61,918 bases of DNA from a virus: positions 1 through 61,918 of IMG/VR virus record IMGVR_UViG_3300037852_000239. One strand, written 5' to 3'. The first letter of the stretch is position 1. Each line of letters begins with the position of its first letter. Both the position numbers and the translations under genes were made by a program. The notes under the pieces were generated by a model that was given only the letters and a program-made list of their open reading frames with translations, ran no database searches and was not told the DNA's origin. Below, piece after piece: positions 2,348-13,667 of this stretch.

Positions 2348-4168
2348 ATGGCCATTATTCGACGACGCACGCAGACGTTGCCTTCGCAGACAGCTCTGAC
2401 GCCCACTACTGACGCGGTCGTGTCGGGGTTGCCGCCGCAGCCTCCGAACCTCGGCGTGGTCGCCGCGCAACCGCGGGCGATCACCGCCATCGTCAACCAA
2501 GCGAACGCGTGCTTGGGATTAGTAGGGTTGACCGGCGCCGGCAAGACTTCGCTCGCGGTCACCGCCGTGGTCGAAGCCTGGGAAGTCTATGGCAAGGTCA
2601 CCCATTGGTACGCCAGCGACCTCGGTGGCTGGGGTAACCAGTTGTTGTCGCTGATCCGGCTGGGGATCTGCCACGTGTGGTACATCCGCAACCACCATAA
2701 CCCGTTCACGACCATGGAATTGGCGAGTCAAGGGTGCTGGCCGGAAACCATGCAGGACCGGGAGACGGGGTTGGCGGCGCCGGATGTGCGGTTGATCCCG
2801 CCCCGGCAGACCCGGTGGACGGTGATCTGCCCCAATGACCACGCGGTGGCGAGCTATGGGGACGTGGCGCAGGCCACGGCGATGCAGCTGGCCTGTCCAA
2901 CTTGTGGCGTGATCACCACGGCCGGGAACGCGCTGCGCATGGACCGCACGATTGTGCGATCAGCTGGGTTTAGGAACGTCGGCCACTACGTGTTCGACTC
3001 GATGACCCAGATGAGCGAGTACGGGCTGACCGAGCTCCGCAACAAGAGCGCACGTGGCGAACTCCCGGCGGGGCACTCGGGCGGATCCGCGTTGGGGTCA
3101 GCGGACGCCCTCCGCGAGGTGGGTGGCAGCGTGTTTGGCACCGGGTCATTGGCTCAATATGGCTTCATGCAGGATAGAGTGCCGGTGTGGATCGGCAACA
3201 TGCGCGCGATCCCCGATCAAGTCCTCCCGCCAATTGTCACCTTCGGCATAGAGTACAGCAAGGGCAGCGACGAATCCGGCGGGATGCCCATGTATGGGCC
3301 GAAGATCGCTGGGAATAAGCGCACGCCACAGGTGCCCGGGTGGCTGGGGAATTGTTTGTACGCTGCGAAGGAGCCGCATAACCCCCCAGACACGGATGAC
3401 CAGGGGAATGTGAAGAGCTACCACCGGTTGTGGTTGGTGAACCATCCGCTGGCGGGGGATGCGGAGAACACCCCGATTGTCGCCAAGCATCGCGGGGAGC
3501 CGCTGGGGATGCCCGATTACCTGGAAGACTCTGGGAAGCCCGAAGAGGCGTGGCAGCGGTGTTCGCTGCGGGAGTTCTACCGGTTGTTGCGGGTGCAGGC
3601 GGAGGTGATTGAGGCAAGGGACCGGGCGAAGTATGCAAATGCGCCTGCCCTCGCGGGCGACCCTGAGGATGAGGAGGAGGTGCTGGAGGTCACTCGCGCG
3701 GATGTTGGAGGTGCCACACAGGGAGGCGCGGTCGGGGGTGGGGCCTCGAGCAGCCGGGTGATTCGGCGGCGGCGGAGTCCTGGGGCGGGTCCGGCGTTGC
3801 CTTCGCAGGTGGCCCCGGTATTCGAGAACAATGTCATCCAGGACAACGCAGGAAATGGGTCGATCTCGCGACTCACACCAGAGGCCTTGACCGGGAGTGG
3901 GCTGGTGCAGAACGCCGCGGGCGAGTGGGTGCAGCCTCCAACCTCCTCGTCAGTGGTCGAACAACAACTGAAGGCCAGCTTGGCCGAGCGGCAGCAGACC
4001 TTGGCGAGCCCCGAGGAAACGGCCGCGGCGTTGACGGCGTTTGACACCAAGGACGCATCGACGGGTGGCAACGGGCACGCCCAAGAGGCCACGGTGGACG
4101 CGAGCGCGCCGCCGATGGCGAGGCCGGTGAGTCGGATTCGGCGGGTGCCGCGGCCACCGGCGGAGTAA
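2348..4168 (+). CDS. P-loop ATPase, RecA/Sak4-like single-strand annealing protein
   Basis: 606 residues. Walker A is GLTGAGKTS (about residue 60). A Walker B-like segment is HYVFDSMTQM. A zinc-ribbon pair, CPNDH and CPTCG, sits between them. The later segment with PKIAGNKRTPQVPGW resembles the catalytic and loop region of phage Sak4-type RecA-like NTPases. The last 200 residues are low complexity, acidic then Ala/Pro/Arg-rich, and probably disordered. A GAGGAGAAG ribosome site lies 8 bases before the ATG. With the upstream nuclease it probably forms a recombination or replication-repair module. Sak4 is the best guess; a generic AAA_24-type phage ATPase is equally compatible. Confidence 0.65.
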   Translation: MAIIRRRTQTLPSQTALTPTTDAVVSGLPPQPPNLGVVAAQPRAITAIVNQANACLGLVGLTGAGKTSLAVTAVVEAWEVYGKVTHWYASDLGGWGNQLLSLIRLGICHVWYIRNHHNPFTTMELASQGCWPETMQDRETGLAAPDVRLIPPRQTRWTVICPNDHAVASYGDVAQATAMQLACPTCGVITTAGNALRMDRTIVRSAGFRNVGHYVFDSMTQMSEYGLTELRNKSARGELPAGHSGGSALGSADALREVGGSVFGTGSLAQYGFMQDRVPVWIGNMRAIPDQVLPPIVTFGIEYSKGSDESGGMPMYGPKIAGNKRTPQVPGWLGNCLYAAKEPHNPPDTDDQGNVKSYHRLWLVNHPLAGDAENTPIVAKHRGEPLGMPDYLEDSGKPEEAWQRCSLREFYRLLRVQAEVIEARDRAKYANAPALAGDPEDEEEVLEVTRADVGGATQGGAVGGGASSSRVIRRRRSPGAGPALPSQVAPVFENNVIQDNAGNGSISRLTPEALTGSGLVQNAAGEWVQPPTSSSVVEQQLKASLAERQQTLASPEETAAALTAFDTKDASTGGNGHAQEATVDASAPPMARPVSRIRRVPRPPAE

Positions 4169-4609: not shown

Positions 4610-5371
4610 ATGGCGACCCCAGCCCAAGCGGCAATCGTAGCTGACGTTAACCGCCCCGCCACCACGGACATCGCCGGAGAAGTCTGGCCGGAAGGCGACC
4701 TCCCCGCCCAGGGCGGCGGCTTCGGCCCCACGCTGATGCCGGGCATCGACACGTTTCTGATCCCCGAGAACCTCGCCCAGCTCTGGGACGAGATCGATAT
4801 GAAGGAGAGCAATCCACGCAGTCCCAGGTATGGGCAGACCTGCAAGTACAACCGCTTGAAGTTCGATAAGAACTCGCCGCTGATCGTCGTCGAGGGACCA
4901 AACAAAGGCGAGACGTTCACACTGACGATCCATGGCCACCAACGACCACGTGGCGGGAAAGCAGATGATCCCGCCACGCCGTGGGTGAGCGATCTGGCCT
5001 ATATGCTCGACATTGGCCTCGGCGACCACTCGCGTCCGTCAAGTGCCCAAGCCCTCAAGGCGACGATCAACAAGTACGCGGGGAAGACCATTAGGCTGGA
5101 GCACGGGTTGTCGGCGCATTGCCGGGCCGACAAGCAGCGGTATATCCTGAACGCCGAGGACAAGTCCATCCTCGACCCGACCGGGCAGAAGGGCTGCGGC
5201 GACGACACCAAGCAGCGCGAGGACAAAAAGGGTAAACAAGGGCGGTATTACACCCGCGACTTCAAGGATCCCACGACCGGGGAGTATGTCGAGGAGATCG
5301 AGTGTGAGTGTGGCGCGATTTTGCGCGGGTTCCCGAACCTCGAGCGGTTTGTGCCGCCGCTGGGGAAGTAG
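4610..5371 (+). CDS. Hypothetical protein, possible single-stranded-DNA-binding partner of the Sak4-like ATPase
   Basis: 253 residues. The N-terminus is Ala/Gly-rich. The central part has a beta-rich stretch (SPLIVVEGPNKGETFTL). A lysine- and glutamate-rich segment (KQREDKKGKQGRYY) is followed by a CxC pair (EIECECGAIL). In phage genomes, Sak4-like ATPases are often next to single-strand-binding proteins. The size and strand-rich core would fit an OB fold, but no diagnostic motif is visible. The function is inferred from context only. Confidence 0.6.
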   Translation: MATPAQAAIVADVNRPATTDIAGEVWPEGDLPAQGGGFGPTLMPGIDTFLIPENLAQLWDEIDMKESNPRSPRYGQTCKYNRLKFDKNSPLIVVEGPNKGETFTLTIHGHQRPRGGKADDPATPWVSDLAYMLDIGLGDHSRPSSAQALKATINKYAGKTIRLEHGLSAHCRADKQRYILNAEDKSILDPTGQKGCGDDTKQREDKKGKQGRYYTRDFKDPTTGEYVEEIECECGAILRGFPNLERFVPPLGK

Positions 5372-5539: not shown

Positions 5540-6115
5540 ATGTCACATAAGTCGCACAAAGGCCCGCCTCAGAAGATGTCCGCGCCGGAGTACGCCCGCC
5601 TGGTCAACCAAGGCAACCTCGCCGCCCGCGACCGGTTCGGCGTGCCGATCGCCCGCGGCCAGCTCGTCGAGTATCGCCCAGAGATCCTCGGCATGGGCGC
5701 GCTGATCTGGCAAGTGATGGACGTCACGCCGATCATGGATCCGAGGCTGCCAGGGATGATCCGCGTCACCCTTGAAGGGAAGGCGCATTTGTCGCTCCAG
5801 GTCAACGTGGCGTGCCATGCGCTGCGCTATCATGGGGAGGCGCAGATCCCAGAGCAGGAGGTGGCGCCGCCCAAGCCAGAGGTAGTTGCCGCTGGGAATG
5901 GCGTCGCTGGCGACGTCGACGCGGCGGTCGAGGCGGTGGTCGCGCGCCTCGGCATCGAGGACACCAAGGTGGCGCCGGTGGTCGAGCGTGAGCCGACGCG
6001 AATCCATCTCACCGATGCGGACCCCCGCGGGCCAGCCCTGCCACAGCCTGACATCGAAGCCGCAGACTATGACGAGGATGGAGCCCCCGATGACGACGAC
6101 GAACAGGCCCACTAA
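5540..6115 (+). CDS. Hypothetical protein with acidic tail
   Basis: 191 residues. GGAGG lies nine bases before ATG 5540. The first 100 residues look like a small beta-rich domain (FGVPIARGQLVEYRPEILG...GALIWQVMDV). The rest is Ala/Pro/Glu-rich and ends in a strongly acidic, probably disordered tail (DYDEDGAPDDDDEQAH). Acidic tails are common in phage single-strand-binding proteins, so that role is conceivable but unproven. The 168 bases before it (5372-5539) are the largest gap in the early operon; I see no convincing promoter there. Confidence 0.6.
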   Translation: MSHKSHKGPPQKMSAPEYARLVNQGNLAARDRFGVPIARGQLVEYRPEILGMGALIWQVMDVTPIMDPRLPGMIRVTLEGKAHLSLQVNVACHALRYHGEAQIPEQEVAPPKPEVVAAGNGVAGDVDAAVEAVVARLGIEDTKVAPVVEREPTRIHLTDADPRGPALPQPDIEAADYDEDGAPDDDDEQAH

Positions 6116-6359
6116 CCCCGAAGCCCTCACCGGCGAGCACACCGGCATTGTCGATCGGCTGATCGCCAGCAAGGGCTTTGGGTTCATCCACGCCGACAAT
6201 GGCAAGGATTACTTTTTCCACATGAGTGCGGTGGAGGGAGAGGGGGGTTTCAGCGAGCTGGACCTCGGCGACGTGGTCAGCTTTGATGGGACGGTGACCA
6301 TCAAGGGCTGCCGCGCGACAGGAGTGCAGTTGGTACGCAATCGCCACAATCAGAAGTAG
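6090..6359 (+). CDS. Cold-shock-domain protein
   Basis: 89 residues from ATG 6090, preceded by GAGGATGGAG and overlapping the end of the upstream gene by 26 bases. The cold-shock nucleic-acid-binding motifs are clear: RNP1-like KGFGFI, RNP2-like DYFFHMSAV, then LGDVVSFD. It would bind single-stranded RNA or DNA in the cytoplasm. A short N-terminal extension precedes the domain. A second, more divergent copy of the fold is at 13664-13903. Confidence 0.85.
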   Translation: MTTTNRPTNPEALTGEHTGIVDRLIASKGFGFIHADNGKDYFFHMSAVEGEGGFSELDLGDVVSFDGTVTIKGCRATGVQLVRNRHNQK

Positions 6360-6369
6360 GAGATCGCCC

Positions 6370-7830
6370 ATGTATGAACCCTTAGAAGAGGAAGACGCCG
6401 CACCAGCGCCTGCGAGCGTGGAAGCCCCGTCTCCACCGGACGTGACGCCGCTCGTGCCCACCATTGAGCAAGCCAAGGCCATGGGCGTTATCGCCGCACA
6501 GCCGTTTGTCAACGTCTCCGGCACCGCCGGGTGCGGCAAGACCTACCTCGCCAAGTTCCTGGCCGAGGGCGACCCCAGCGTGTTGTTGTGCTCCACCACG
6601 GGGATCGCGGCGGTCAACCTCGGCGAAGGGCAGACGATCAACTCGGCGCTGGGGTACTATGACACCGCGAGCTTGAAAGACGCCTACGTCAACGGGTTCC
6701 TGCAGGCCAAGCTGCGGAAGCTGCGCAAGGCGGGTATTCGAACCATCTTGCTGGATGAAAAATCCATGCTGGACGCGTTCCAGTTGACGTATCTGGTGCG
6801 CGGCATCGACGACGTCAACCAGGGGAAGGCGCTCGAGGCCGTGGGCGAGGGCGATGCCACCGCAGCCGAGGTCGAGGCGAACAACCCCCAGATGGGGCTG
6901 GTGCTGGTGGGCGACTTCGGCCAGTTGCCGCCGGTGAAGGCGCCCTTCGCGTTCGAGTCCGCGGAGTGGCCGCGGTTCGCCGACCACACGATCACGCTGA
7001 CGCAGATCCTGCGTCAAGTTGACGCCCCGTTTATCACGGCGCTGCGCCATGTCCGTGCCGGGCGGGCTGGGTGGGCGCTGGAGTACTTCACCGAGGCGAA
7101 GTTCAGCCTCACCACCGACGATCACTTCGACGGCACCACGGTGTTTGCGCGGAATGACGCGGTCGATCGCTACAACCAGCTGCGGCTGGACGAGTGTGCC
7201 GGCGCCCCGATGTCGTTCACGGCCTCGCGCTGGGGGAAGCAGTCAGGCGAGTGGAAGGGCATTCCTGATCAACTCGACATCAAGGTGGGCGCACTGGTCA
7301 TGGTGCTGGCCAACCGGCGCTACCCCAGGATTGATGAGGATGACCTTCCTGGGCTGCAGTATTGCAATGGCGATCTGGCGGAGGTGCTGGACCAAGCGAC
7401 GATTCGCGTGGAAGATCGATTAGGGCGATCTCGCTTGGTGACGCGCTGCTACGTGCGGCTGCACCGCACCAAGAGTGAACAATGGATCTGGCCGGTGACG
7501 CGGGACTTTTTGATCCCCATGGATCCTGGGAGGCGCACGGAGCTTCGCGAGGCGGGCACCCCCGAGAAGATCAAGGAACGCTGGGAGATCGCTGGGCAGA
7601 TTACGTATATGCCGTTGCGGCTGGCGTGGGGGACCACGGTGCATAAGTCGCAGGGGCTGAGCCTGGACCAGGTCCAGATCAACATCCGCGATGGGTTCTT
7701 CGGGCAGCCTGGGATGTTGTTCGTCGCGTTGTCCCGGGCGCGAACGCCGGAAGGGTTGCGGATTGTTGGGAACGCGCGGACGTTCGTGGCGCGGTGTGCG
7801 ACGAACCCGGCGGTGGTGCCATGGTTGTGA
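6370..7830 (+). CDS. DNA helicase, superfamily 1B (Pif1/RecD/Dda type)
   Basis: 486 residues. Walker A is GTAGCGKT (about residue 50), with motif Ia STTGIAAVNLG. Walker B is ILLDEKSML and motif III is LVGDFGQLPPV. A later QILRQ and the C-terminal AWGTTVHKSQGLSLD and FVALSRART motifs complete the SF1B set. It would unwind DNA 5' to 3' during replication or recombination. The first 30 residues are acidic and probably disordered. It sits directly after the cold-shock gene in the replication operon. Length and motif order are complete, with no sign of damage. Confidence 0.92.
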   Translation: MYEPLEEEDAAPAPASVEAPSPPDVTPLVPTIEQAKAMGVIAAQPFVNVSGTAGCGKTYLAKFLAEGDPSVLLCSTTGIAAVNLGEGQTINSALGYYDTASLKDAYVNGFLQAKLRKLRKAGIRTILLDEKSMLDAFQLTYLVRGIDDVNQGKALEAVGEGDATAAEVEANNPQMGLVLVGDFGQLPPVKAPFAFESAEWPRFADHTITLTQILRQVDAPFITALRHVRAGRAGWALEYFTEAKFSLTTDDHFDGTTVFARNDAVDRYNQLRLDECAGAPMSFTASRWGKQSGEWKGIPDQLDIKVGALVMVLANRRYPRIDEDDLPGLQYCNGDLAEVLDQATIRVEDRLGRSRLVTRCYVRLHRTKSEQWIWPVTRDFLIPMDPGRRTELREAGTPEKIKERWEIAGQITYMPLRLAWGTTVHKSQGLSLDQVQINIRDGFFGQPGMLFVALSRARTPEGLRIVGNARTFVARCATNPAVVPWL

Positions 7831-8036: not shown

Positions 8037-8291
8037 ATGCCTCTCATCGACCCCGCCGACCTCGACCAGGTCAAGCCGCTGGTCGTGGGTGACCGCGTCC
8101 AGCGCCGCGATGTGTTGATCGCCCGCATCACGCTGATCCGCCAAGGCACGGTGGTGGAGGTGTACCAGTCTCGCCCCAACGCTGTGGGCCACACCCTGCC
8201 CCTCTATGCGGTCGAGTGGGAGGGGCAAGGGTTTATCGAGCGAGGGTACTTCCGCGAGGGGTTGGTCAAAATCACCCCCGATGTCGCGTGA
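8037..8291 (+). CDS. Small hypothetical protein
   Basis: 84 residues. The ATG directly follows the TGA of the upstream gene. It reads as a small beta-barrel-like protein (VGDRVQRRDVLIARITLI...GTVVEVYQS...YAVEWEGQGFIERGYF), similar in style to the KOW/SH3-like small proteins phages often carry. Not assigned to a family. Confidence 0.6.
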   Translation: MPLIDPADLDQVKPLVVGDRVQRRDVLIARITLIRQGTVVEVYQSRPNAVGHTLPLYAVEWEGQGFIERGYFREGLVKITPDVA

Positions 8292-8313: not shown

Positions 8314-8362
8314 TGGGTGGATCGGACAAGGGGCATAACCAAACAGAAAGGACAAGGGGACC

Positions 8363-8737
8363 ATGGGACAAGCATTTGACCACGAGGGCGGCGTGTTGGG
8401 TGAGGCGTCTGGGGAGACGAAGCGCGACGTGTTTGACAAACTCATGAAGGAACATCTGGATGCGCACGAGATTCGCATCAAGTCCATGGAGGAAAAAGCT
8501 GCGGCGGTCAAAGACCCCCGAGCGGCGACTACGGCACCGCTCGACGTGCTCGATCCGCTCCTGCAATTCTTCCAGTATGAGCACCTACCACCACAGGTGT
8601 GGATGATCAGTCGTCCATTCGGGGAGTTGGCCACGAATCTCGTCAAGATGTTGCCACGCAATCCTGAGAGGACGGTCGCACTGCGGAAGCTGCTCGAGGC
8701 GAAGGACTGCGCGGTGCGGGCGGTGTTGTTCAAATAG
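8363..8737 (+). CDS. Candidate Acb2/Tad1-like cyclic-nucleotide sponge (anti-CBASS/anti-Thoeris family hairpin)
   Basis: 124 residues; AAAGGACAAGGGG precedes ATG 8363. The C-terminal 60 residues are two predicted helices, FQYEHLPPQVWMISRPFGEL and ERTVALRKLLEAKDCAVRA. This matches my memory of a small phage family (F-x-Y-x-H-L-P ... E-x-x-x-A-L-x-x-L-E/L-x-A) related to the Acb2/Tad1 hairpin domain. Proteins of that type sequester cyclic signalling nucleotides of bacterial defence systems. The N-terminal 60 residues are polar and helical. The link to the characterised proteins is inferred from pattern and size only. A conserved phage protein of unknown function is the alternative. Confidence 0.5.
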   Translation: MGQAFDHEGGVLGEASGETKRDVFDKLMKEHLDAHEIRIKSMEEKAAAVKDPRAATTAPLDVLDPLLQFFQYEHLPPQVWMISRPFGELATNLVKMLPRNPERTVALRKLLEAKDCAVRAVLFK

Positions 8738-8747
8738 GGCGAGTGCC

Positions 8748-8852
8748 ATGACCAGGCTGTGGAGCGACGTTCGGCTGGCCGTGCGCGATTGGTGGTGGAC
8801 GTGGCGGTATGGGTTAAACCTGAACAGGGATCGCAGGTGGAGGCGCTGGTGA
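8748..8852 (+). CDS. Tryptophan/arginine-rich micropeptide (34 aa)
   Basis: ATG 8748, ten bases after the upstream stop. It encodes a 34-residue peptide with WSDVRLAVRDWWWTWRYG and a basic RDRRWRRW tail: eight Trp and nine Arg. Its TGA overlaps the GTG of the next gene (GTGA). The composition suggests membrane or nucleic-acid interaction. The gene may be real because it fills the gap exactly, but no homolog is known to me. Confidence 0.4.
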   Translation: MTRLWSDVRLAVRDWWWTWRYGLNLNRDRRWRRW

Positions 8853-9067
8853 TTCATGAGGCGGGAGAGCTGACGCGGGACGGGGTGCAGCGGTGCGTGC
8901 GGTGCGGGTATGTGCTGACCGATTATCGGCACACCCTGGTGGTGGCAGGCTCGCCGGCACTCGGGGGGTGGGAGGTGGGGGCCTTCGTCGAAGTCGTCAA
9001 AGGCGCGGGGAACCCCAGGTATAGCGGCATCACCGAGGTGCCGCCGGACTGTGAGGTAGTCCAATGA
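8849..9067 (+). CDS. Small hypothetical protein with one CxxC
   Basis: 72 residues from GTG 8849, coupled to the preceding micropeptide by a GTGA overlap. A CVRCGYVLTDYRH segment gives one CxxC plus a nearby His, like half of a zinc ribbon. The remainder is beta-like. The ORF is open further upstream (8759), so the start rests on the overlap pattern. Confidence 0.45.
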   Translation: MIHEAGELTRDGVQRCVRCGYVLTDYRHTLVVAGSPALGGWEVGAFVEVVKGAGNPRYSGITEVPPDCEVVQ

Positions 9068-9624: not shown

Positions 9625-10189
9625 ATGCGCGTGCTGGTCGCCTGTGAGTTCTCCGGAGTGGTGCGGGAGGCGTTCCGTGCAAGGGGGCATGATGCGTGGT
9701 CGTGCGATCTGCTGCCCTCGGAGATCCCCAGCGGTCGGCATTTCGAGATGCACGTTGAGCGGCTGCTGGAAGGCGACGACGATTGGGATCTCCTGATCGC
9801 ACATCCTCCATGTACGTATCTGGCTGTAAGCGGTGCCCGGTGGTTAAAGTCTCGGCGTCACGAGCAGATACATGCACTGGAGTTCGTGCGTACCTTGCTC
9901 ACTGCGGGAGTTCCCCGCATCGCGTTGGAGAACCCGGTCGGTGTTATCAGCACGATGGTGCGCAAGCCCGACCAGATCATCCAGCCGTGGCAGTTCGGCC
10001 ACGGCGAAACCAAGGCCACGGTGCCTCTGGCTGAAGGGACTGCCCAAGCTTCAGCCGACGAATGTGGTACCAGGCCGGCAGGGACGTGTGCATCACGAGC
10101 CTCCACATCCGGATCGCTGGAAGCGCCGGAGCCGCACGTATCAAGGCATCGCCGACGCGATGGCCGAGCAATGGGGGAGGGGCCTCTGA
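9625..10189 (+). pseudogene. DNA-methyltransferase-like phage protein, interrupted by a one-base frameshift
   Basis: The first 132 residues (MRVLVACEFSGVVREAF..., DLLIAHPPCTYLAVSGARW, RIALENPVGVIST, QPWQFGHGETKAT) match my memory of a phage family related to cytosine methyltransferases, with the catalytic-type PPC motif. At 10020/10021 the frame breaks. With one G removed, the protein continues CLWLKGLPKLQPTNVVPG... and GIADAMAEQW to a stop at 10187-10189, giving about 188 residues. The stop then overlaps the next ATG normally. Either the gene is inactivated or the assembly has an extra base. The uncorrected frame runs through to 10494. Confidence 0.75.
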
Positions 10190-10528
10190 TGGATCCGCGT
10201 CGCGGCACGTTGTGGCAGCGCTTCTGGCCCAAGGTCCAGCTCGCGCCGAACGGCTGTTGGATCTGGCAGGGCGCGAGAGGCCGCCGCTCAGCGCAAGGGG
10301 CTAGATGGGCGGCTGCGCAAAGGCGGCCGGGGCGCAGGGCACGTCAGCCCGCATCGCCAGGTGCTGATCTGGGCGTGCGGCCCTCCACCCACCCCCGACC
10401 ACCAAGCGTGTCACCAATGCCCCAACCCCACCGAACACTCGACCTTGTGCGTCAATCCCTACCATTTGTACTGGGGGACACAGGTGGAGAATGAAGCGGA
10501 TAAGCGAAGCGCTCGCGCGCAGCCCTGA
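10189..10528 (+). pseudogene. HNH endonuclease-like protein, frameshifted
   Basis: It begins at ATG 10189 (TGATG overlap) with RFWPKVQLAPNGCWIWQGAR, the usual opening of small phage HNH proteins. The rest of the fold is in another frame: HRQVLIWACGPPP, then CHQCPNP...LCVNPYHLYWG. The latter carries the Cys pairs and the final C-V-N-P-x-H-L of HNH enzymes. The frames join near 10270 if one base is removed. It ends at 10526-10528, three bases before the polymerase ATG. It lies directly after another gene with the same kind of one-base excess. Confidence 0.65.
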
Positions 10529-10530
10529 CT

Positions 10531-12585
10531 ATGCAACCTAAATTCCAGAAGCCTGACGCCTGCCGCGGCTGCGACCTCGCCCTGCGCGGCACTGGGTTCG
10601 TCCCACCGGACGGCCCCGCCTCGGCGCGGCTGGTGTTCATGGCCGAAGCCGCCGGCCCCGAGGAAGTCATCGTCGGCCGCGGGCTGGTCGGCGCGGCCGG
10701 CGGCGTTCACACGCGCGTGCTGCACCGAGCGGGGATCAACCGCGAGTTGACGCGCACGACAAACGCCATTTGGTGTCTGCCTCCTGGCATGTGGTTTGAT
10801 GAAAAAGCCCCGTGGTATTTTCCAGCACTCAGTCATTGTGCCGTCCATCGATCGCGCGCGCTCGCTGACGTCCCCGACAACGGGGTGGTGGTCGCCCTCG
10901 GGGGCGTCGCCCTGCGCACCGTGTTGAACCTCCACGGCACCCCCGGCGTCCGCGTCGACGAGTTCCACCACACGGTCAACCGGGATCCCACCGACCGCTT
11001 CTGGGTGGTGCCGACCTTTCACCCGAGTCACTTGCAACGCGGCGCGATGTCGCTGCTCGAGGTAGTTTCTGATGCGTATCGATTATCAGATCGAATTGCG
11101 ACTCACGGGTTCACTCGATCAGCTGTGTCGCTGGTGGTCGACCCATCGCGAGAATTTGTCGAACGTTGGGTGGACAGCCACTTGGCACGCGTTGCCGCCG
11201 ATCCGGACGGCACCCACCTCAGCCTCGACACCGAGTTCGAGAAGAAAGCCACTGACGAATCGACAACTGACCAAGCGGCTACAGCAGCCAGCGCGCTCAC
11301 GCGCATCAACCTCGCCAACGACCAGACGACCGGGCTGAGCTATCCCTACGCGGGGGAGTATCGTGCGCTGACGGAGCGGTTGTTGGCGGGGATGGCGCGG
11401 CTGGGGGGCATCTGCTGGTTGTGGTTCAAGTATGCCGATTGGGAGCATTTGCGCCGCGCCGGGCACACGCTGGACGGGATCGTGGCCTATGACGGGGCGG
11501 TGGCGTGGCATTACTTGCAGAGCGATCTCCCGATGGGGCTGGGGTTTGTCGCGCCGCTGGCGTCAGACATGGGGCCGTGGAAGCACTGGTCGGAGGACAA
11601 GGCCCGGTTCGGCCAGTATGCGGCGGCTGACGCGGTGCAGAACTGGCGCACGTGTTTGTGGGTGTTCAAGGCGTTGTTGGCGGCTGGCCAATGGACGGTG
11701 TTTGAACAAGACTGGCATGCGCGGGATGAATACGTGCTCCGGCCGAGTCATGCCATGGGTGTCCCGATCAATCGAACAGCGCTCGAGGCCTTCCACCAGG
11801 ATCTCCAGCATAAATACGCGCACGTGCTGAGTGAGATTAAAACCATTGGTGCGCAGGGTGTGTTGAAGCCCAAGGCCGGGTATGCGAAAAAACCAACGCG
11901 TGAACAACCCCCGCAATCTATCCTGGGAGGGCGGAGCAAGAAAACCCCGGACGACGCCAAAGCCACCTACATCGCCGAGAACGTCACGCTCGTTGAGCGC
12001 GAAGTTATACAGGCTGTGCGTGTCTGCCGAACCTGTGGCGCACGCGCTGTTGGCAAAAAACACCGCTGTGGGAAGAAATTTGGCGGAGCGCCTGTGGTAC
12101 TTGCTCTGGAAGATCAGCGAGTATTACGATGGTGGTGGGCGGTTCCCTTTAATCCCAGCAGCTGGCAGCAAGTGTTGTCCTACATCGAAGGGAAAGGCCA
12201 CCAGCCCGGCGTCTCGCGCAAAACCCGGCAACCCACCACCGACGCCGCGAGCCTCAAAAAGCTAGCCGCGGAGACGGGCGATCCGTTGTACCAATTGTTG
12301 TTGGATGGCCGGGCGATTGAAAAGGTGGATTCCAACTATGCCGTGGGGACGTTGTCGCGGCTGGACGAGGATGATCGCATCCATCCTGAGATCACCCCCA
12401 GGACGAGCACCCTCCGCGATAGTTCCATCGGGCCGAACCTGCAGAATGTCATCGCGGACAAGAGCGGGCCGGCGGGGTTGGCGAGTGGCTTCCGCACGTG
12501 TATCGTGAGCCGCGACGGCATCCCGGCGCTGGGCGGGGCGATCCCCCTCTACGAAGCGTGGTTGGATCGCTGGGGGCTGCGGTGA
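10531..12585 (+). CDS. Uracil-DNA-glycosylase-like / 3'-5' exonuclease / N-terminal part of family A DNA polymerase
   Basis: 684 residues. Residues 1-180 resemble family 4 uracil-DNA glycosylases: four cysteines at 11, 14, 82 and 103, spaced like the iron-sulfur ligands; VFMAEAAGPEE in place of the GEAPG-type motif; and a late HPSHL. Residues 228-375 are a DnaQ/PolA-type proofreading exonuclease: LSLDTEF (Asp233, Glu235), YADWE (Asp303) and YAAAD (Tyr363/Asp367). The rest is the polymerase thumb up to GPNLQNV, with a CRTCGA...HRCG zinc-like insertion. The palm and fingers are in the next gene. The stop at 12583-12585 overlaps that gene's GTG. Confidence 0.85.
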   Translation: MQPKFQKPDACRGCDLALRGTGFVPPDGPASARLVFMAEAAGPEEVIVGRGLVGAAGGVHTRVLHRAGINRELTRTTNAIWCLPPGMWFDEKAPWYFPALSHCAVHRSRALADVPDNGVVVALGGVALRTVLNLHGTPGVRVDEFHHTVNRDPTDRFWVVPTFHPSHLQRGAMSLLEVVSDAYRLSDRIATHGFTRSAVSLVVDPSREFVERWVDSHLARVAADPDGTHLSLDTEFEKKATDESTTDQAATAASALTRINLANDQTTGLSYPYAGEYRALTERLLAGMARLGGICWLWFKYADWEHLRRAGHTLDGIVAYDGAVAWHYLQSDLPMGLGFVAPLASDMGPWKHWSEDKARFGQYAAADAVQNWRTCLWVFKALLAAGQWTVFEQDWHARDEYVLRPSHAMGVPINRTALEAFHQDLQHKYAHVLSEIKTIGAQGVLKPKAGYAKKPTREQPPQSILGGRSKKTPDDAKATYIAENVTLVEREVIQAVRVCRTCGARAVGKKHRCGKKFGGAPVVLALEDQRVLRWWWAVPFNPSSWQQVLSYIEGKGHQPGVSRKTRQPTTDAASLKKLAAETGDPLYQLLLDGRAIEKVDSNYAVGTLSRLDEDDRIHPEITPRTSTLRDSSIGPNLQNVIADKSGPAGLASGFRTCIVSRDGIPALGGAIPLYEAWLDRWGLR

Positions 12586-13667
12586 TCACCGCCGACGTCT
12601 CCTGTCGATTGCTGGAGATCGACTACGCCGGCATCGAAAACGCGCTGACCGCGTGGTTCCTCTGGCGCCACAACGTCGCCACGGCCGAGGAGGCGCACGA
12701 ATACCTGCGCTGGTGTCAGCTGGGTTTGCACGCGGCCGTGTGCGCCATCCGAGTCGGCGAACCGGCGTGGCCAAACTGGCCCGATGACCAGATCAAGGCC
12801 CACTTGGCCAAGGTGAAGGAGGCGCACCCCATCGAATACGACATCTGCAAGCGCGTGGACCACGGCACGGGCTATGGCCTCACGCCGTTTGGGATGACCG
12901 AGATGTTCCCCGACTACTTCAAGACCTTGAAGGAGGCACAGGAGGGCCAACAATTCCTGTTTACCTTGGCGCCGAGCCTGCCGAAGTGGCACCACGCGGT
13001 GCGGCAGCGCGCGCGCGACGTCGGCTATCTGGGAGGGATTACACTACCCCCGGCGGCGCCGTCCATCTGGGATCATCCCTACGGGTATCGACACTGGTTC
13101 TGGGACGTCCTCAGTTACAAACCGACTGATGAAGTCTCAGCCCGCCGGTGGTTGAACGATCCGCGGCGCGCCGCCCGCGTGGTGCGCTTGCACGGGCGGT
13201 GGTTCCGCGTGGACTATGGCGGCGATTCGAAGCGCACCTGTGCGTTGTACCCCCAGTCCACAGGCGCTGGGGTGCTGAAGCTGGCGGAACTGCGGTTGTT
13301 CCACCCCGCGTCCAGCGATTTCATCGGCGACGCGTATTTTGGGCGCACGCCGTTGCTGCATCCCATCCACGATTCCTTGCTGCTGCACCTACCCAATCGC
13401 GTCTACGACCGGGTGCTGGCGATTGTCGTGCGCGTCATGCAAGACTGGTTGCGCGCGCTGCCCATCCCAGCGGCGTGGAACATGGGGCCCTTCCTGCGCA
13501 TCGGCGTGGCGGCGAAAGGCGGACGCACCTGGGACAGCCGCGACATGGAGAAGTTGCCGGTGGCGCCGATCCGGTTCGGGGTGGAGCATCCGGAGGATGC
13601 GCCGGTGATGGCCGCACAGGAGTCAGATCTGGAAATGTGGAATGCGCTGGCGAGGAGGGTCGCATGA
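12582..13667 (+). CDS. Family A DNA polymerase, catalytic palm/fingers part
   Basis: 361 residues from GTG 12582, overlapping the upstream stop by four bases (GTGA); the open frame extends back to 12498. Motif A is LLEIDYAGIENAL (for DYSQIEL). The fingers motif B is KRVDHGTGYGLTPFGM. Motif C is HPIHDSLLLHL with the catalytic His-Asp. These are the residues missing from the upstream gene, so the two products together make one polymerase. It could be a true two-subunit enzyme by termination-reinitiation, a -1 ribosomal frameshift at GGGGGC (12572-12577), or a sequencing slip. Comparison with the usual PolA spacing suggests about 25 extra residues at the joint. Confidence 0.85.
   Translation: MITADVSCRLLEIDYAGIENALTAWFLWRHNVATAEEAHEYLRWCQLGLHAAVCAIRVGEPAWPNWPDDQIKAHLAKVKEAHPIEYDICKRVDHGTGYGLTPFGMTEMFPDYFKTLKEAQEGQQFLFTLAPSLPKWHHAVRQRARDVGYLGGITLPPAAPSIWDHPYGYRHWFWDVLSYKPTDEVSARRWLNDPRRAARVVRLHGRWFRVDYGGDSKRTCALYPQSTGAGVLKLAELRLFHPASSDFIGDAYFGRTPLLHPIHDSLLLHLPNRVYDRVLAIVVRVMQDWLRALPIPAAWNMGPFLRIGVAAKGGRTWDSRDMEKLPVAPIRFGVEHPEDAPVMAAQESDLEMWNALARRVA

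Follow-up and report, generated by a model that had tools for sequence, protein, structure and literature searches.

The question raised by this locus is whether a small phage gene encodes a member of the Acb2/Tad1 hairpin superfamily, whose known members serve as sponges, and, if so, whether it would hold the same ligands. The window, by which we mean the whole stretch of DNA analysed, is a virus contig of 61,918 bases. The initial annotation had proposed an Acb2/Tad1-like sponge at 8363-8737, and this ORF (+ strand in the ORF list) is real: it begins with ATG, encodes 124 amino acids and contains both of the stretches quoted, FQYEHLP... and ERTVALRKLLEAKDCAVRA. The gene and its neighbours, the flanking ORFs being annotated at the level of Pfam and PHROGs, are the following.

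6370-7830, + strand: Dda-like helicase
8037-8291 and 8759-9067, + strand: small ORFs without assignment that flank the gene
8347-8359, + strand: purine-rich Shine-Dalgarno-like stretch AAAGGACAAGGGG, read directly from the sequence
8363-8737, + strand: gene of the 124-residue two-domain protein
9625-10494, + strand: DNA methyltransferase/HNH ORF
10531-12585, + strand: UDG-PolA ORF

The GC content of the ORF by codon position (0.66/0.37/0.73) resembles that of coding DNA in a contig of 64% GC, and four full-length relatives with 50-63% identity (L001-L004) are found among the IMG/VR matches listed. Since relatives are numerous, several residues are near-invariant and the GC pattern is of the coding type, the ORF is not a chance reading frame. 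The gene had also been placed in an early operon. An early or replication region is a fair reading of the gene content, because the flanking genes on the + strand (helicase, methyltransferase/HNH, UDG-PolA) are of replication type and long ORFs lie on the - strand between about 14 and 52 kb. Comparison of the first 25 kb of the window with INPHARED at the DNA level, and a search for phage relatives by means of the polymerase ORF, gave none.

Some other features of the contig were observed. The ORF at 10531-12585 combines a UDG-type domain with the start of a family A DNA polymerase, the rest of which is encoded by an overlapping ORF in another frame (12498-13667), a situation that may reflect a frameshift, a sequencing error or a split gene. 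The end of an ORF at about 6115-6359 (+ strand) resembles by eye a cold-shock domain (GIVDRLIASKGFGFIHADNGKDYFFHMSAV), and a low-complexity ORF with repeated RQPSRQP units lies at the contig end (61492-61836, - strand).

AlphaFold modelling with 45 relatives resolves the protein into two confidently predicted parts with a linker of poor prediction quality between them.

8363-8485, + strand: N-terminal module, residues 1-41 (MGQAFD...EIRIKS), predicted as strand-strand-helix-strand, pLDDT about 95
8486-8551, + strand: low-confidence linker, residues 42-63, pLDDT 53-67 over residues 41-60
8552-8734, + strand: hairpin domain, residues 64-124 (PHROGs, AlphaFold), with a helix at 65-70 and long helices at 77-96 and 101-122
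8681-8719, + strand: near-invariant second-helix motif L107-R108-K109-L110-L111-E112-A113-K114-D115-C116-A117-V118-R119, from conservation in 167 members

The N-terminal module is modelled with strands at residues 2-5 and 11-15, a helix at 20-30 and a further strand at 36-39. It had been described as new, and this is borne out by searches of Pfam, PHROGs and NCBIfam, none of which returned a match to the N-terminal half; a similarity to tape-measure proteins (E=0.08) was rejected as chance. Most relatives are short and lack this half. A module with the consensus MGQAFDRDGxVLGEAxGxTKREVFDKLxxxHPDAxEIRIKS is present in 11 viral loci and is followed by the hairpin in eight of them. At another locus (L264:1501-1914) it is joined to PHROG 11049, a small phage domain of another kind, at a further one (L267:1501-1833) to a C-terminal part without a match, and one locus (L273) is cut off. 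Judged by the sequences of these loci, the module is exchangeable. The hairpin domain in its turn seems to swap N-terminal partners. A fusion of the hairpin to an N-terminal P-loop-like stretch (VRILGPVGSGKSS) was observed in Erwinia phage pEa_SNUABM_7 (L082:1462-1890, corresponding to MZ475896 18227-18655).

The C-terminal domain places the protein in a family covered by PHROG 1761 (E=2.4e-25) and PHROG 5120 (1.9e-18), neither of which carries a function assignment. The family is widespread. A pattern scan detects relatives encoded in at least 579 IMG/VR stretches, and 315 INPHARED records contain them (374 with a shorter query and a looser limit), including those from phages of Vibrio, Erwinia, Acinetobacter, Brevibacterium, Gordonia, Mycobacterium, Ruegeria and others. 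In GTDB genomes 118 stretches from many bacterial phyla encode relatives. An alignment of 167 members shows no variation at six residues (E102, L110, E112, A113, D115 and R119) and one or two exceptions at each of R108, K109, L111, K114 and C116. A few members in INPHARED (records H4, H18, H75 and H76) are labelled 'anti-TRAP domain' or 'occludin homology domain' in GenBank, names that look like automatic mis-annotation. Matches to Occludin_ELL, TetR_C_11 and DUF6735 were weak (E about 0.0005-0.006 for Occludin and TetR), involved few members and were rejected. The literature yielded nothing usable on the PHROG 1761/5120 family as an Acb2 homologue or under the Sequestin and Lockin names.

The kinship of the C-terminal helices with the Acb2/Tad1 hairpin, as originally claimed, is supported in a remote sense, but is not visible by direct comparison. 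An HMM search against the hairpin family had been named as the check; with the Pfam profile PF24729 (Acb2_Tad1_hairpin, gathering cut-off 27 bits) neither the window protein nor its C-terminal 55 residues gave a match, so that it does not belong to the Pfam family. Direct sequence searches of Pfam, NCBIfam and the PDB with the window protein likewise returned no Acb2 match. Only one of 45 relatives reaches PF24729, at E=0.15, and known Acb2 proteins match it at 1e-16 to 1e-20.

A bridging protein, gp14 of Gordonia phage Schomber, surfaced as a weak match of a member of the PHROG 1761/5120 family. It exceeds the cut-off of PF24729 (46.2 bits, E=5e-12), is aligned with the PHROG 1761/5120 family by hhalign with a probability of 92.9% (E=3.7e-7, a single comparison) and shares 39% identity over 51 residues with the window protein (BLASTP E=1e-6, one pair). 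With the same helix it matches PHROG 1454 (1e-7), PHROG 1761 (0.005) and PHROG 717 (0.0098), the last being Acb2's own. PHROG 1454 is matched, at the same end of the profile, both by T4 Vs.4/Acb2 (7e-4) and by the window family (2.7e-4 to 0.0068). No relatives of Schomber gp14 were found when it was used as a query against viral contigs.

A narrow profile of PaMx-type Acb2 does not match the PHROG 1761/5120 family (probability 0.9%). The PaMx-type proteins form a diverged, insertion-rich branch, and a broader set of PF24729 proteins was therefore built. Comparison of the broad family profile with eight PF24729 proteins of actinophages gives a score of 34.3, the maximum in 300 column shuffles being 18.7; when Schomber gp14 is left out the score is 26.0 and the maximum in 300 shuffles 17.3. 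With the unbroadened family profile, again without Schomber, one of 300 shuffles reaches the observed score, and this comparison taken alone is marginal. The two profiles align gap-free over the two long helices. When the family HMM is run against 9,300 ORFs the best match outside the family is Schomber gp14, followed mostly by PF24729 proteins that include PDB 9ptq, 'Acb2 homolog 43'. A PF24729 HMM made without Schomber ranks the Erwinia phage fusion protein and a few other family members above T4 Vs.4.

Modelled alone, the hairpin domain reaches a pLDDT of 93.5 and a pTM of 0.80 and consists of a short helix and two long antiparallel helices. The predicted topology agrees with the published Acb2 protomer, which consists of one short and two long helices (PMC12043709). 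In a Foldseek search of BFVD with the hairpin domain, the first seven ranks are taken by family members or unnamed proteins; every protein at rank 8 and at ranks 10-16 bears the name 'Acb2/Tad1 hairpin domain-containing protein'. Searches of PDB folds by Foldseek and VIA-align with the whole protein and the domain list only generic helical bundles, and neither Acb2 nor Tad1 is among them; for a two-helix hairpin such lists are uninformative, unlike that of BFVD. The bridging protein, the shuffled controls and the HMM ranking together support homology in the wider sense, and the C-terminal half is very probably a divergent member of the Acb2/Tad1 hairpin superfamily that lies outside Pfam's family as drawn.

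The ligand residues of T4 Acb2 are not conserved in the family. T68 aligns with R108, which is Arg in 165 of 167 members, and K23, whose Acb2 counterpart K26 we take to be a ligand residue, aligns with S83, which is Ser in 158 of 166. R79 of T4 Vs.4 corresponds to the invariant R119. The position of Y8 is offset by a single column from the aromatic residues F69 and F70, in a region where the alignment is uncertain. In T4 Acb2 the Y8A mutant is binding-deficient and T68M lowers binding (PMC12657230). These replacements suggest that the hairpin scaffold has been retained and that the pocket has been rebuilt with other, equally frozen residues; a ligand of the nucleotide type, though of a non-classical kind, would therefore be expected.

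ORFs clustered around 159 family loci show terminase- and portal-like ORFs, recognised by eye, among the commonest neighbours, and also Tad2-like genes, six of which are confirmed as PF11195 with 58-93 bits. Such genes lie 26, 46 or 204 bp from the family gene or overlap it (L239, L058, L037, L066), and elsewhere 0.7-1.4 kb away (L020, L027, L007). Seven of 50 virus records contain a Tad2 above the cut-off, and in six of the seven it is no more than 2 kb from the family gene; under random placement the probability of this is 4e-4, or 9e-4 when contigs of at least 12 kb are used. Tad2 is missing in the other 43 records, and in bona fide Acb2 loci it occurs within 1 kb in four of 80, some of these being apparently near-copies. 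One locus (L009) carries a canonical PF24729 gene (3680-3937, 33.6 bits) 0.85 kb upstream of the family gene (4791-5189); a PF24729 gene over the cut-off is missing in 43 of 44 records with a family gene. A Tad2-like gene was also noted in L009, about 16 kb away from this pair. The window has no PF11195 match anywhere, and the window protein itself no Pfam match. The counter-defence role that had been proposed thus draws on the neighbourhood of the relatives, where family genes cluster with Tad2-like genes and in one case with a canonical PF24729 gene, but not on that of the window.

Taking kinship, residues and neighbourhood together, we are inclined to regard the window protein as a sponge whose ligand preference has changed. 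The C-terminal 60 residues would form a hairpin of the Acb2 layout homologous to the PF24729 proteins, as computed here, and such hairpins may oligomerise like Acb2 and Tad1 with ligand pockets between protomers. The near-invariant charged residues R108, K109, K114, D115 and R119, together with E102, S83 and H74, could then line a pocket in which a nucleotide immune signal is bound tightly and left uncut, so that CBASS-, Thoeris- or similar effectors would stay off. With other residues at the cyclic-nucleotide-binding positions of Acb2, the protein probably prefers a ligand outside the classical Acb2 range. On a more speculative note, the N-terminal module might be an exchangeable add-on that tunes targeting, assembly or ligand choice, an idea prompted by its occurrence with other small phage domains.

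A plain Acb2, that is, a sponge with the classical ligand range (3'3'-cGAMP, cA3), would share layout and superfamily with the window protein, and Acb2 homologues are known to be diverse in sequence, T4 Vs.4 and PaMx Acb2 matching each other only at E=0.12. The near-invariant Arg and Ser at the equivalents of T68 and K23 speak against it, as T68M alone weakens binding by T4 Acb2 (PMC12657230). This explanation is accordingly given little credence, and on the residues the binding of Acb2's own ligands by the window protein is unlikely. It might also be held that any small two-helix hairpin resembles Acb2 and that the family has an unrelated function, as could be argued from the missing direct Pfam match, the spurious Occludin and TetR matches and the generic bundles of the PDB searches. 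Chance of this kind is improbable, given that the shuffled-column controls, the bridging protein and the rankings in BFVD and among 9,300 ORFs converge on one family, with profiles that run without gaps through both long helices.

A true relative of the hairpin need not be a sponge, and the domain may instead be an oligomeric adaptor or regulator of phage replication or packaging, the same hairpin having been re-used by Acb2 and Tad1. The second helix stays almost frozen even between phages whose hosts differ widely, which is unusual for a pocket in an arms race, terminase- and portal-like ORFs abound near the relatives, the Erwinia phage protein is fused to a P-loop-like N-terminus and replication genes surround the window gene. 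The same helix is, however, equally frozen in the actinophage PF24729 proteins (LAITKLEEAMFWANAAIAR), and Schomber gp14 likewise adjoins a terminase, so that neither of these two arguments distinguishes a sponge from an adaptor. The Tad2-like neighbours favour counter-defence, and we consider an adaptor or regulator to be a minor alternative to the sponge with changed ligand preference.

Among the known systems, Acb2 (T4 Vs.4; Pseudomonas phage PaMx/PaP2 p26; PF24729) resembles the window protein in being a small phage protein built of one short helix and two long antiparallel ones, in a remote but supported homology of the hairpin sequence and in a conserved Arg late in the second helix (R79 of T4 Vs.4, R119 here). 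The window protein differs in falling below detection by the PF24729 model, in its extra N-terminal module and in having S83 and R108 in place of K23 and T68 of T4 Acb2. The closest branch of the superfamily by profile is made up of the actinophage PF24729 proteins and 9ptq; their LP.xRE/NPE turn and A.xxKLxEA second helix are similar, although the second helix reads ITKLEEAMFWANAAIAR in these proteins and LRKLLEAKDCAVRA in the window protein. In Tad1 too a β-containing N-terminal part precedes the hairpin, in the form of a four-stranded antiparallel sheet (PMC12043709). The window protein has no such four-stranded sheet but a 41-residue module with a flexible linker, which is missing in most relatives. 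Acb2 is described as relatively rare and limited to certain phage groups (PMC11722364), whereas the PHROG 1761/5120 family, of which the window protein is a member, is found in hundreds of diverse phages. It is tentatively conceivable that this family is a third great branch of hairpin sponges, spread more widely than Acb2, whose Arg/Lys/Asp/Cys pocket takes a messenger foreign to the known sponges.

If the sponge reading is true, hundreds of phage genes that currently go under the labels hypothetical, 'occludin' or 'anti-TRAP' would be counter-defence sponges, and the family would rank among the commonest of its kind, in phages of Proteobacteria, Actinobacteria and other phyla. Sponges matter further as bacteria sense them, the Panoptes system being triggered by Acb2 and Acb4 (PMC12657218, PMC12657230). 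The invariant pocket, different from that of Acb2, would predict an unrecognised ligand, and the protein could be used as bait for that messenger and for the defence system that makes it.
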